From: Lachnospiraceae bacterium NK4A144
Lineage (GTDB): Bacteria > Bacillota > Clostridia > Lachnospirales > Lachnospiraceae
Length of the DNA: 64,000 bases
Direction: 5' to 3'
NCBI GenBank assembly: GCA_000424365.1
Contig: AUJT01000009.1
Coordinates: 1 to 64,000 of the forward strand
In this document: positions 1-49,834 of the stretch, in pieces
Position numbering within the stretch: position 1 is the stretch's first letter
Layout: each line of letters starts with the position of its first letter
Notes under the pieces: model-generated
Told to the model about the DNA's origin: nothing
The model's database searches: none
Seen by the model: only the letters and a program-made list of their open reading frames with translations
Program-made: the position numbers and the translations under genes

Positions 1-105
1 GAGACCTTGGGACCCGCAAAACACGAGCAAGTAGCGTTATTACGCGGAATGCGAGTGTTTTAGGATTGCGGGAATTGCGTAGCAATGAAGCAATCCGTGA
101 CATCA
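1..105 (+). repeat. Family A repeat, partial copy cut by window edge
   Basis: About 100 bp are nearly identical to the reverse complement of 49676-49775. The copy contains nested inverted repeats: AAAACAC...GTGTTTT around a GCGTTATTACGC core, then GGATTGC...GCAATCC around ATTGCGTAGCAAT. It ends in CGTGACATCA, the terminal sequence of the full copy. The other half of the element would lie left of the window. No coding potential is seen; function unknown. Confidence 0.85.
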
Positions 106-17890: not shown

Positions 17891-18697
17891 TTACTTCTTA
17901 ATCGGAACTACACCTTCAATAGCACCTGTAAGTGTAACAGCACCCTCAGAAACAGTGTACTTTACAGGGCTCTTCTTGTTGTTCTTAACGTTAACAGTAA
18001 GAACCTTTGTCTTACCCTTCTTTGTCTGCTTGTAGAGAACAGTAACCTTAGACTTCTCAAGCTTCTTTGTGTTAACCTGTACGTTTACAAGGTAGTTAGC
18101 AGAAACCTTCTCGAATGCAGCCTTAGCTTCCTTCGGCTTAGCGTAGTTGCCAGAAACAACACCGTTACCGGAAACATTAAGAGCCTTTACAGTTACGTTA
18201 AGTGCGTTACCAGCCTTCTTGAGTGCCTTTGCAGCAGCCTTAGCAGCCTTCTTCTGATCAGTAGTAGCGCCCTTTACAGCCTTAACACCTGTTACGTTGA
18301 ATGTAGCTGTTCCTTTATTCTTACCCTTTGCAGCATCGCTCTTTGCGAACTTACCAACAAGTGTAACAGAAAATGCCTTTACGGAATTTGAGCTTACCTT
18401 AGCCTCAACATCAAGGTCATCAACCTTGATAGCCTTTCCTGTGTAAGAAAGGATGTTGTTGTAGCTAACATTAACTGTGTACTCGCCCTCTGTGATAACG
18501 CAAGCGCTAACTGCAACAGCGTCATTAGCAGAAGGTGTGTTTCCGGAAACCGGCTTTACAGATGCAACTTCCTCAACTGCTACAACTTCCTCTGCTACCT
18601 CGTCGTGGATCTCTTCAGCGAATGTTGCAACGTTCATGGACATAGCCATGGAAGCAGCGAGCAGAAGAGAAACGATCTTCTTCCAATTCTTTCTCAT
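17891..18697 (-). CDS. Secreted protein of unknown function, 268 aa
   Basis: Has a clear signal peptide (MRKNWKKIVSLLLAASMAMS, cleavage likely after TFA-E). The mature part starts acidic and Ser/Asn-rich, then has a beta-rich region with Lys-rich stretches. The segment VSYNNILSYTGKAIKVDDL aligns with ISYNSVITFGGKKVTAEDF of the BspA-like protein at 61296-62675, so the two share a domain I cannot name. RBS GAGAGGAAGG. It is preceded by a leader of about 240 nt containing a strong pseudoknot-like structure. Confidence 0.7.
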   Translation of the reverse strand: MRKNWKKIVSLLLAASMAMSMNVATFAEEIHDEVAEEVVAVEEVASVKPVSGNTPSANDAVAVSACVITEGEYTVNVSYNNILSYTGKAIKVDDLDVEAKVSSNSVKAFSVTLVGKFAKSDAAKGKNKGTATFNVTGVKAVKGATTDQKKAAKAAAKALKKAGNALNVTVKALNVSGNGVVSGNYAKPKEAKAAFEKVSANYLVNVQVNTKKLEKSKVTVLYKQTKKGKTKVLTVNVKNNKKSPVKYTVSEGAVTLTGAIEGVVPIKK

Positions 18698-18829
18698 CTC
18701 TTTTTCCTTCCTCTCTCTTTATAGTGTAGATGGTTTTATTTATCTATGTAAAATCCACATATCCTCGTGTGTGCCCACGTTTCAGTGTGAATACATAGAA
18801 CAGATTTAATATGCTCTCTCCATGAATGA

Positions 18830-18921
18830 CTTTATATGTTTTAATGCGGAGGCATGTGCACATTAAAATATATCATTCATATAAAGAGAGATTTTATCTG
18901 AAAGAAACTTCATGCCTCCGC
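18830..18921 (-). ncRNA. Candidate structured leader RNA (pseudoknot)
   Basis: In the minus-strand transcript a hairpin forms from CTTTATATG...TTTTAATG and CATTAAAACATATAAAG. Its 14-nt loop holds CATGCCTCCG, which is perfectly complementary to CGGAGGCATG 54 nt upstream (11 bp with the flanking G/C). The loop pairing makes an H-type pseudoknot, or an alternative fold. It lies between the promoter at 18948-18977 and the secreted-protein start. I know no family with this layout. Confidence 0.5.
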
Positions 18922-18947
18922 AGGTAAAACCATATTCACAATTGCAG

Positions 18948-18977
18948 ATTATAAAACATCTGTCTTAAGCATGTCAA
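18948..18977 (-). promoter_or_regulatory. Promoter of the secreted protein gene
   Basis: Minus strand TTGACA, 18 nt, TATAAT, perfect hexamers. The predicted start near 18941 gives a leader of about 245 nt that includes the structured element at 18830-18921. Confidence 0.85.
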
Positions 18978-19225: not shown

Positions 19226-22200
19226 TTATTTACTGAAGTCATATTCAAATGTCAACTTTTTTTCACCTCTTTTCTCTCCTCGGGCTTCAATCCTCTTCCC
19301 GTAAGCCCTAATAGACATTACGTATTCACAGTCATCATATTCATCCTTACCTGATAATCCTCCAGTACATGTAAGTTTCCTTGTCCTTGGGTTCCAGTCA
19401 AAAATCCATGTATCACTGTATGTCATATAAAACGTCCTATTTGTTTGTCCTTCTTTAGGAACCCATTCACCCGCAAAATCACAGTTGTCTCTCCTAAGCT
19501 TTTTGGATGTCCGATTATATCTCCATTCAATCTTAGGATAAGAATAATTTATTTCTTTCCAATGAGCATAATATGTCGTTCCTTCGGATACATTCTTGAT
19601 CTTTCCTCCGGCATCAGCTACCTTTGTTCCGCCGTCCGGACTTGTATACCATCCCAGGAAATCGCACTTAGCTCGTGACGCCTGAGGAGCAGTTATCTCT
19701 CCTGTAGTGTACCAATTAGCATATAATGGGATTATTGCATTATTCTCATTGAGACAGCTAAATTTTTCCATGAACTCTTTATTTGGAGTGATCACTTCGC
19801 CATTCGTATACATGTCACCGGTACCATCTTTATTAGTACTCCAATGCGCAAAGTTTCCATATATTTTTGCTGTACCGCCACCCGTGCCACCATTTGCGTT
19901 AAAAGTCACAATTCCACGATAAGGTCCTGTCAAACCGTTTTGTGCCAGATTGAACTTCTTATCAAAAGTCACATTCTGTTCTTTCATCGTTCCGCCGGAT
20001 CTGTTTTCTTTTCCGTCATTAAATGTCACATAATATGTGTTAGGTGAGAAACGGGCATAATAGTCTGTACGCTCCTTATTCGGCGTAATCCAGGTATTCT
20101 CATTTATTTTCATACCACCCGTTTCTGACGTCCACCAGCCATCAAAACGGTATCCATCCTTTGATACGATCGGATAATCATTGACAGGCAGACCGATCTT
20201 TTCTCTTCTCTTTATTTCTGTACCATTTGAATGAAATACCGCATCACAATAGTTTCTCTCGTAGTATAGAAACATAGTATTGACCACACTGGGGATCATT
20301 TCCTGGTCTTCTGCCTGGTCAACATTTTGCTGACTTGTTATTTTATGATCTTTATCACCGTTCTTATACAGAGAAGACAGTGCTTCACTATAATTTCCTT
20401 CAACTTCCGAATTCACTATTCTAACTCCGGCAAGATGGAAACCATTTTTATGGCTCTCGTCCCATCCTGTAGCATTAGAATTTTTTTGTACAAAAGGTGT
20501 GTTCTCCGTACCCACCGGATCATTTATTATAGATTCACCCTTAAGAACCCATTCTCCAGCTTCTATACGATATTTTGTACCATCTGTATTATCAATTTCA
20601 TCAGACGATTCTGCATCGCTGTCTTTACCTTCTGCCACATATTCATACTTATCAGGTTCAGTAGAAGATTCTATAAGATATTTAACTCTAAAATATGCCG
20701 GTGCCGGCGTAGACTTAATAGTAAATACTACATTCTCCTGAAGCCTGTTTAACAGTATTGAATCTACCGTCTGTGAACGGACCACTTCACCCTTCTGGTT
20801 TTTGATAAGAAGTACATGCTTATAGTGGCGATCATACTTTCCGTCTTTTATGTGCTTAACAAAAACCTGTGAGTCTTTTGGTATCATCACATTTTCCGCA
20901 AGACCATATTTCGTATTAAGGACATGTTCTTTTTTCTCTCCATTCGGAGCAATTGATGTAATTTGGATTTTTGTTGTAGGATATTTAGACACATCTGTTA
21001 CTTTTGATGTGAAAGAACTGCTTTCTGGAACATATGTAAAATTAAGCATTTTGTACTTTCCGTCTGATGGATCTGACGGATCTGACGGATCGGACGGGTC
21101 TGATGGATCCGATGGATCATCTGACGGATCATTGTCCCGACCGTCGATCGGTTTTTTATCTGAAACCACTGTACTTCCATCCGGACGGATCCATGCATTG
21201 TGTTCGATGTTTCCATTGATACCATCAATTATAGGCTTCCTAAACCATTTCTTTTTCATTTCCTCATGGTCATAGGATCTCTGATCGCCTACTATTACGG
21301 TTATCTTTACTCTCTTGCCTGCATTTTTTGCAGTTAGGACTGTTGTCCCCTTACCTTCTGCAATGATCACGCCGTATTCCGATACAGTTGCAACTTCTTT
21401 TTTACGTGATCTCCAAAGTGGGAGCTCATGAGACTTTTCAAAGTTAATGAACAACTTGTCGCCTTTGCACATCTTTACGGTGTATGAATTTTTCTTTCCT
21501 GTGCTCGTTATTCCATAAGATGTATCGATTTCAGGCTCATTTACATATACACGGACACTATATCCGTCAGAGCCTGATACCGTTGCCATGCCCTGTGAAA
21601 CTGTTGTTATCTTATTTCCCTTGATCTTTACGGTATTTTCTGAAGTAGTCCATTCTGCCTTTGAGGAATCCGGTATAGTAATCTTTTTTGATTTCTTTAG
21701 CGGAATATCCATCAAGTATGTCGACTTAGATGTATCATCGATCTTGGCAGTTACAGTAAACTTTCTGCCTCCGGCATACGCATAAATCTTTGCCGTTCCT
21801 TTACCAACACCTACGATCTTTCCATCAAGAACCTGTGCAACATTTGGCTTTGCGGATATCCATGCAACATCATAGCCTAAATCCGCAATGTTTTTACTTC
21901 CATCCGTAAGTGCTACGGTATCACTATCTCCTATCTTCATTGAAACTTTTTTATTACTAACTTTCGGATCAATGATCTTTACCTTATATACCTTTGAGTC
22001 TATGGATACCTCCGCTTCTCCGGTCTTTTTTACCTTTGCGAGTCCTTTTTTATTGATCGCAACATAACGCTTGTCTGATGTGACACTTCCTTCGCCTACA
22101 TACCACTTCTGTCCCTTTATAAGTCCAAAGGTACCGTCTTTCAAAAGAGAAGGCTTTTCTTCCATTCCGGTAATTGCATCTATTGATATGCTGCTTATTC

Positions 22201-22561
22201 TGTTACCGGAAGATGTTCTATTAACTGATATATTCGACGTCCAAAATTCATTCACAGCGTTATTGAAACTATCGTTATTCACATCTTCATCAGTCACATT
22301 TTCCGAAACACTTTCTGAATTACCTGAATCAGTTAATACATCTTCCTCCGCAATTTCAATAGAGTCATCTGCCTCATTAGAATAATTTTCCTCTGAACTC
22401 TCGACCAACTCATCTGCATCTTCAGCTTCTTCTGCATAGTTTTGACTTACTCCATAGTTTCCTGCATCTTCCTCAACAGGTGAAGCAAATACAGGTGCTA
22501 TTGATGTAGCTGTGATAGACGCAGAGAGCATCATCACCAACAATCGGTGCCTGTTTTTCAT
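19226..22561 (-). CDS. Large secreted multidomain surface protein
   Basis: An exported protein of about 1111 residues. Signal peptide MKNRHRLLVMMLSASITATS; an acidic Glu/Asp/Ser region to about 130; several bacterial Ig-like (Big_2) type repeats from about 140 to 430 (pattern 'V..DGKIVGVGKGTAKIYAYA', 'GVIIAEGKGTTVLTAKNAG'); a (PSD)n linker near 485-505; then Listeria/InlB-type B repeats (RFDGWWTSETGG, FLGWYTSPDGG...TYYAHW). No LPXTG or membrane anchor at the C-terminus, so it may be released or bound non-covalently. Adhesin-like role inferred. ATG 22561 chosen for its GGAGG. Confidence 0.8.
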   Translation of the reverse strand: MKNRHRLLVMMLSASITATSIAPVFASPVEEDAGNYGVSQNYAEEAEDADELVESSEENYSNEADDSIEIAEEDVLTDSGNSESVSENVTDEDVNNDSFNNAVNEFWTSNISVNRTSSGNRISSISIDAITGMEEKPSLLKDGTFGLIKGQKWYVGEGSVTSDKRYVAINKKGLAKVKKTGEAEVSIDSKVYKVKIIDPKVSNKKVSMKIGDSDTVALTDGSKNIADLGYDVAWISAKPNVAQVLDGKIVGVGKGTAKIYAYAGGRKFTVTAKIDDTSKSTYLMDIPLKKSKKITIPDSSKAEWTTSENTVKIKGNKITTVSQGMATVSGSDGYSVRVYVNEPEIDTSYGITSTGKKNSYTVKMCKGDKLFINFEKSHELPLWRSRKKEVATVSEYGVIIAEGKGTTVLTAKNAGKRVKITVIVGDQRSYDHEEMKKKWFRKPIIDGINGNIEHNAWIRPDGSTVVSDKKPIDGRDNDPSDDPSDPSDPSDPSDPSDPSDGKYKMLNFTYVPESSSFTSKVTDVSKYPTTKIQITSIAPNGEKKEHVLNTKYGLAENVMIPKDSQVFVKHIKDGKYDRHYKHVLLIKNQKGEVVRSQTVDSILLNRLQENVVFTIKSTPAPAYFRVKYLIESSTEPDKYEYVAEGKDSDAESSDEIDNTDGTKYRIEAGEWVLKGESIINDPVGTENTPFVQKNSNATGWDESHKNGFHLAGVRIVNSEVEGNYSEALSSLYKNGDKDHKITSQQNVDQAEDQEMIPSVVNTMFLYYERNYCDAVFHSNGTEIKRREKIGLPVNDYPIVSKDGYRFDGWWTSETGGMKINENTWITPNKERTDYYARFSPNTYYVTFNDGKENRSGGTMKEQNVTFDKKFNLAQNGLTGPYRGIVTFNANGGTGGGTAKIYGNFAHWSTNKDGTGDMYTNGEVITPNKEFMEKFSCLNENNAIIPLYANWYTTGEITAPQASRAKCDFLGWYTSPDGGTKVADAGGKIKNVSEGTTYYAHWKEINYSYPKIEWRYNRTSKKLRRDNCDFAGEWVPKEGQTNRTFYMTYSDTWIFDWNPRTRKLTCTGGLSGKDEYDDCEYVMSIRAYGKRIEARGEKRGEKKLTFEYDFSK
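21064..21130 (-). repeat. 9-bp tandem repeat coding for PSD linker
   Basis: About six imperfect copies of a GGATCTGAC-type 9-mer inside the large secreted protein gene, giving consecutive Pro-Ser-Asp triplets. Copy number may vary between strains. Confidence 0.85.
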
Positions 22562-22723
22562 TGTATTCCTCCATAAAAACATTGATTTTTGTCTTCATGC
22601 TATATGGAGTGACAGGTTGAGGGGTTTAAGTAAAAGAATTTAAAATTTAAGATCTGATTTTTCCCTGATTTGATAATTTGATAATGAGAAGGATAAATAA
22701 TGATAGAACTAAAAGTTAATAAT
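22562..22723. other. Intergenic, upstream of large secreted protein
   Basis: AT-rich region with the RBS of the secreted protein gene. No clear sigma-A promoter pair, ORF or RNA structure recognised. Confidence 0.4.
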
Positions 22724-49675: not shown

Positions 49676-49834
49676 ATGATGTCACGGATTGCTTCATTGC
49701 TACGCAATTCCCGCAATCCTAAAACACTCGCATTCCGCGTAATAACGCTACTTGCTCGTGTTTTGTGGGTCCCAAGGTCAAAATCCTCTTTGTGCAAGCA
49801 CAATCGGATTTTGACCTTTTGACCCTTACATCAT
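49676..49834. repeat. Family A repeat, full copy
   Basis: 159 bp with inverted ends ATGATGTCA...TTACATCAT. Left 100 bp is nearly identical (inverted) to 1-105. The right part has the perfect stem GGTCAAAATCC / GGATTTTGACC around TTGTGCAAGCACAA and ends TTTTGACCCTTACATCAT. It lies between the fucI stop codon (49839) and the fucU promoter. Confidence 0.9.

Follow-up and report, generated by a model that had tools for sequence, protein, structure and literature searches.

What does the leader of about 244 nt between a promoter and the gene of a secreted protein do in Lachnospiraceae bacterium NK4A144, and which of its structures are likely to matter? The window, that is, the whole stretch of 64,000 nt that was analysed, carries this leader on its minus strand, bounded by the following elements:

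18972..18977, minus strand: -35 hexamer TTGACA
18948..18953, minus strand: -10 hexamer TATAAT, after a spacer of 18 nt
17891..18697, minus strand: gene whose 268-aa product has an N-terminus like a signal peptide (by eye)

The consensus promoter named in the initial annotation is real, and TTGACA-18-TATAAT (18977-18948, minus strand) matches the consensus at 12/12 positions. The leader length follows from a transcription start that is itself placed from this promoter. The annotation's further remark that no terminator is present also holds, with no terminator-like site found in the leader on the minus strand. The 268-aa protein, whose signal peptide was judged by eye like all others here, has no match in Pfam or NCBIfam and no known enzyme or transport domain, and its predicted structure (mean pLDDT 36.7) is too poor for a fold search. 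The same domain forms the C-terminal part of a much larger protein on contig C8 of this genome (L037 1498-3195, open frame of 1349 aa). Upstream of the leader promoter, positions 19226-22582 (minus strand) encode a protein of 1118 aa that looks secreted and carries List_Bact repeats as well as a DPS-repeat tract.

The 5' domain of the leader combines a hairpin of stacked stems with an upstream arm complementary to its loop:

18911..18922, minus strand: upstream pseudoknot arm TGCGGAGGCATG, paired in 3/3 distinct leaders
18873..18880, minus strand: P3 5' arm AUGAAUGA
18861..18868, minus strand: P4 5' arm UUUUAAUG
18845..18856, minus strand: loop-side pseudoknot arm CATGCCTCCGCA
18839..18846, minus strand: P4 3' arm CAUUAAAA
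18822..18829, minus strand: P3 3' arm UCAUUCAU
18815..18820, minus strand: P2 3' arm GAGAGA, Shine-Dalgarno (SD)-like

P4 (UUUUAAUG/CAUUAAAA) stacks on P3 (AUGAAUGA/UCAUUCAU) and P2 (UCUCUC/GAGAGA). An 11-nt perfect pairing with a copy in a hairpin loop had been described; pairing and loop position stand, and the length is corrected to 12 nt, TGCGGAGGCATG (18922-18911) being perfectly complementary to CATGCCTCCGCA (18856-18845) in the P4 loop. The P4 3' arm begins with the last C and A of CATGCCTCCGCA, so that 10 pseudoknot pairs are compatible with P4 without shared bases and both helices can coexist, as was proposed. An inverted repeat of at least 11 nt arises in 52/5000 dinucleotide shuffles of the leader and a 10-nt match that lies within the loop of a hairpin of 8 bp in 0/5000; it is this loop-to-upstream layout that agrees with the earlier view of a pairing unlikely to occur by chance.

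Related leaders were sought in a genus set of 48 genomes, in which G000 is the window's own. A DNA search finds matches in six, with the full leader in four, G000, G047 (100%), G003 (92%) and G030 (82%), while the remaining two matches, 28 and 20 nt long, fall in unrelated sequence. In each of the four genomes the leader stands ahead of the same gene. The G047 leader is a copy of that in G000, which leaves three distinct leaders (G000, G003 and G030). Comparison of homologous leaders, a check suggested by the initial annotation, finds the pairing preserved in 3/3 distinct leaders with one compensatory change, and none of the 32 proposed pairs is lost. The pseudoknot helix of G030 has one pair in which both partners differ (G-C replaced by A-U) and one A-U that becomes G-U; G003 has one U-A to U-G change in P3. 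Every slid register of the pseudoknot pairing is clearly worse in the three leaders. The covariation signal, with three leaders and one compensatory pair, is not decisive (shuffle control, 159/500). A rough energy sum, which includes a pseudoknot penalty of 9.6 kcal/mol, gives the pseudoknotted fold of G000 -55.7 against -55.1 kcal/mol for the ordinary minimum, and makes it worse than that minimum in G003 (-54.7 vs. -58.0) and G030 (-52.4 vs. -54.0). A nested alternative, in which the same arms are extended by GUUUUA/UAAAAC, reaches -52.2 in G000. The pseudoknot is therefore favoured by comparison, its pairing being kept among the leaders, whereas the rough energy sums are neutral to unfavourable. 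Judged from sequence, it can form in the leader, and the case for it rests on one compensatory change.

On the aligned segments the leader is an island of conservation relative to its surroundings. Against G003, the pseudoknot segment (18920-18861) is identical at 60/60 positions, the next at 51/60, and the two that lead to the start codon at 59 and 60, whereas elsewhere, promoter and gene start apart, the covered segments have mostly 29-52/60. Against G030, the four segments from 18920-18861 to the start codon have 56, 48, 46 and 55 of 60, with flanks mostly at 27-46/60. In the near relative G047 the leader is unchanged and the flanks have 50-60/60, and the secreted protein gene falls to 43/60 per segment, so that the protein changes fast under a fixed leader. 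Its identity is 59% to G003 and 34% to G030. A covariance model of the 5' domain retrieves the same four genomes from the genus set (E < 1e-21), and the next match has E 0.079, the first of five weak ones (E 0.079-0.87). Among 200 family genomes (G000, G001 and 198 of other genera) only G000 is found at E 0.01, that is, none of the 198. Both model searches (48 and 200 genomes) used stricter filters, with which some weak matches are lost. A mobile or repeated element was considered and rejected, as the model gives one strong copy per genome in 4/48 genomes.

The same 5' domain contains a strand that is complementary to the ribosome-binding site of the gene:

18880..18891, minus strand: UCUCUCUUUAUA, first six bases forming the P2 5' arm and all 12 the anti-SD strand
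18706..18723, minus strand: UAUAAAGAGAGAGGAAGG, anti-SD target and Shine-Dalgarno sequence

UCUCUCUUUAUA (18891-18880) is perfectly complementary, over 12 nt, to UAUAAAGAGAGA (18723-18712), a stretch that overlaps the SD, and a 12-nt complement to the last 35 nt of the leader occurs in 1/5000 shuffles. Both strands are unchanged in 3/3 distinct leaders. The anti-SD strand is the P2 5' strand and its continuation, and P2 and SD sequestration are therefore mutually exclusive. With this strand shared, the open and blocked folds compete at nearly equal predicted energy: the P2 fold and the SD:anti-SD fold are at most 1.5 kcal/mol apart in 3/3 leaders, and the SD is predicted to be unpaired with a probability of 0.38-0.51. 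The predicted anti-SD pairing supports control of translation. Of the two levels named in the initial annotation, translation or stability, it is thus translation that gains support, from a 12-nt strand absent from that account. In orthologs that lack the 5' domain no such anti-SD is visible (by eye).

Downstream of the 5' domain the leader forms a further hairpin:

18743..18799, minus strand: 3' hairpin of the leader, with three pairs changed on both sides and one broken in G030 (RNAalifold, alignment of the three leaders)
18766..18779, minus strand: CGUG-GGCACA-CACG stem with GGCACA hexaloop (18775-18770)

The GGCACA motif reaches beyond the four pseudoknot leaders. It lies upstream of the start codon in 8/8 orthologs chosen by protein search (G000, G047, G003, G030, G029, G026, G004 and G023); a ninth, in G041, has a weaker protein match, was noticed through the motif and was then confirmed as a full-length relative (23% identity). 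G029, G026, G004, G023 and G041 have the GGCACA hairpin and lack the pseudoknot domain, in place of which a short hairpin lies near the promoter (by eye). Contig C3 of G023 encodes another full-length, though weaker, protein match (E 1.9e-8), and GGCACA is missing upstream of it. The promoters of orthologs without the pseudoknot (L011, L012, L014, L015, L021) share the core GGTACTAT, unlike TTGACA/TATAAT.

Other genes were represented by 40 upstream regions, hand-picked from N-terminal matches and not by motif. GGCACA lies within about 200 nt of the start in 7/40, and is a hexaloop in six of these seven. Among 37 non-redundant regions (the 40 minus three near copies) it is the commonest hexaloop with six cases; the next overall has four, all A/T-rich, and the next with at least three G/C has three. 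In these 37 regions GGCACA forms a loop in 6/7 occurrences against 450/6715 positions generally (6.7% background), a binomial chance near 6e-7 (worked by hand). For covariation, 14 sequences were assembled, excluding the G003 and G047 hairpins as copies of that in G000; they were picked for GGCACA, so that only the stem is a test. In this set the six-pair stem is paired in 81.0% of cases vs. 43.6% in shuffles, double-change cells number 31 vs. 10.8, and the covariation score is reached by 0/500 shuffles. The position that closes the loop is G-C in 7/14, A-U in one and nonstandard in six, five of those A.G. In L132 of G004 the loop around GGCACA is shifted; this site was excluded from the hairpin model and is missed by it. 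The regions were fetched from genes with similar signal peptides, and the link with secretion is therefore partly one of choice, only two model matches being free of it.

The hairpin model itself is weak. In the first 24 genus genomes, eight matches at E <=0.02 comprise seven training sites and a new one on contig C35 of G020, which lies 60 nt before MRKNWKKVLS..., probably an ortholog that the contig end truncates. At E <=0.3, the range in which all matches of this set were inspected, there are 26: 13 training sites, two copies (G003, G047), G020 and ten others, namely a terminator loop on G030 C19, eight sites in open frames of at least 278 aa and one, in G045, in a frame of 111 aa. One training site of the 14, on G041 C23, is missed even at E 5. 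The other 24 genus genomes give 25 matches at E 0.3, of which 23 lie in open frames of at least 138 aa; one, on G013 C139, lies between genes and 79 nt upstream of a signal-peptide-like 479-aa ORF, and at another, on G037 C162, no frame exceeds 84 aa and no ORF of 50 aa begins within 150 nt. Out of 36 genus matches at E <=0.3 that are neither training sites nor copies, only two, in G020 and G013, resemble leaders. Beyond the genus, a scan of 24 genomes gives a best match of E 0.039 and 11 matches up to E 0.3; nine of these lie in frames of at least 231 aa and the other two in short ones, and no signal-peptide-like ORF follows any of them. Altogether the hairpin is present at 19 loci in 11/48 genomes: the nine orthologs, L107, L158, L163, L130, L134, L140, L151, the shifted L132, and the G020 and G013 sites.

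Plain patterns are less selective. In the window's own genome GGCACANAC has 58 matches, the one in the leader included, vs. 50 for the reversed control, and in the 20 other regions that were examined the only convincing leader hairpin is on contig C10 (L107). GGCACA combined with AGAGAGGAA matched 108 of 397 family genomes and was dropped; the matches listed look like chance.

These results suggest, with about an even chance of being right, that the leader acts in cis as a regulatory RNA of two domains and sets, through translation or the stability of the mRNA, how much of the secreted protein is produced, the GGCACA hairpin being a putative docking site for a shared factor. The P2 fold, in which the SD is open, would be the on state and the SD:anti-SD fold, in which it is closed, the off state. 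The pseudoknot would pin the hairpin near the 5' end of the mRNA and may shield that end from decay, as would the short 5' hairpins of the orthologs. The GGCACA loop would be bound by a trans-acting factor, probably an RNA-binding protein, that is common to a small set of secreted-protein mRNAs and shifts their translation or stability. An sRNA in place of a protein is a possible partner for the loop. The signal recognition particle (SRP) RNA, which would need the complement UGUGCC, was rejected, the SRP RNA stretches of eight genomes containing neither UGUGC nor GUGCC. More tentatively, and with doubt outweighing confidence, the hexaloop hairpin may mark a small RNA regulon in one Lachnospiraceae genus, in which a candidate RNA-binding regulator reads the loop in the 5' UTRs of secreted-protein genes and to which one clade added the pseudoknot and anti-SD switch.

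Among known systems, the closest for a hexaloop in a 5' UTR hairpin read by a protein are the ANTAR-target RNAs, whose loops have A1 and G4 and which usually comprise two hairpins and a terminator, according to the available part of the source (PMC8934654). In the present leader the loop GGCACA has G1 and A4, the hairpin is single and no terminator is seen. The closest topology is that of the odc1 (uORF-25-1) motif of alpha-proteobacteria, where, before a translated gene, the large loop of a hairpin pairs with nucleotides close to the 5' end, a structure thought to control translation start; as the consulted portion describes it, the ribosome-binding site there is part of P1 and is followed by two UUG starts and a conserved 11-aa uORF (PMC8632094). 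The present leader differs from the motif in having its SD about 100 nt downstream and no conserved uORF, and in taxa and gene. No such ORF lies between SD and start (by eye), and the upstream frame is broken in G030. CsrA-regulated leaders carry GGA in hairpin loops and at the SD. The GGCACA hexaloop has no GGA. Judged by eye, the GGA at the SD is kept in 3/3 leaders, whereas G030 lacks the two GGA sites that lie between the domains and has the GGA of the pseudoknot arm shifted.

A leader that acts purely on stability would need no switch and no factor: the 5' structure would protect the mRNA from 5'-end-dependent decay and the 3' hairpin would be a second stabiliser. The short hairpins that follow the promoter directly in orthologs without the pseudoknot (by eye) suit such a leader. 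A works-like precedent is the aprE leader of Bacillus subtilis, which belongs to a secreted protein and whose 5' structure and SD are important for mRNA stability; pseudoknot, anti-SD and GGCACA loop are not mentioned in the part of that report available (PMC7509114). The explanation is nevertheless unlikely, leaving the single loop sequence on changing stems and the 12-nt anti-SD unaccounted for. The anti-SD is accommodated by a metabolite riboswitch, with the pseudoknot as aptamer and P2 vs. anti-SD as expression platform. This combination of a pseudoknot with mutually exclusive SD pairing is known from translational riboswitches, and the predicted SD-open and SD-closed folds, with their near equal energies, resemble it. 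The leader differs from these in being clade-specific and in preceding a gene without known metabolic role: its 5' domain was found in 4/48 genus genomes, before a single gene, and in 0/198 from other genera, the secreted protein encoded there has no known enzyme or transport domain, and no Rfam family matches at the gathering score. A riboswitch thus seems improbable. Of the ligand- or protein-binding RNA in the initial annotation, the protein-binding half gains support, and this for the downstream GGCACA hairpin; no result supports a metabolite ligand.

The 12-nt inverted repeat could also act at the DNA level, as a pair of regulator binding sites within the transcribed region. The matching G-C to A-U change in both copies in G030 would be expected of co-evolving DNA sites too, but the other G030 change affects one copy only, keeps a G-U pair and so is neutral for RNA while creating a mismatch between DNA half-sites; the nested stems P2-P4 that surround the repeat and the one strong copy per genome also weigh against it, and we give this possibility quite little credence. 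Least credible is a leader peptide, encoded by a small regulatory ORF that starts at the AUG with which the upstream arm ends. Preceded almost directly by GGAGG, this AUG begins a frame of 16 codons in G000 and G003 (by eye), but the spacing from GGAGG is one base, and a 1-nt deletion in G030 alters frame and length after seven codons. Against these explanations the two-domain regulatory leader remains the preferred reading, and the initial interpretation as a structured leader is, overall, partly supported.

A structured regulatory leader is of a known kind; the recurring GGCACA hairpin is undescribed and is the more general discovery. Among the open-licence papers listed by literature searches, none describes this leader or the hairpin in its title or the opening of its abstract, and the searched text of three RNA-discovery papers (PMC11109978, PMC8632094, PMC2864571) does not contain the word Lachnospiraceae. 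The recurrence of the hairpin points to an unrecognised tuning of protein export in these bacteria. To our knowledge, post-transcriptional control of exported proteins in Lachnospiraceae is little studied, and a non-exhaustive literature search yielded nothing on it. One loop on changing stems before several secreted-protein genes offers a bait for the candidate binding factor, and the SD/anti-SD leader a simple reporter with which to test switching.

A search of Rfam 15 (4227 families) over the whole window gives, at gathering score, only Clostridiales-1 RNA (RF01699), outside the leader, with copies at 49677-49833 (minus strand) and 1-105 (plus strand). Across seven loci and up to E 5, none reaches the gathering score, and the seven weak matches all lie outside the leaders. 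A second hairpin type, with a GATCAGGG-containing loop ahead of the SD, is seen by eye at two signal-peptide-like genes of G023 (L128 and L138). L155, in which GGCACA lies far upstream of the start and outside the analysed stretch, has a hairpin similar to this type (by eye).
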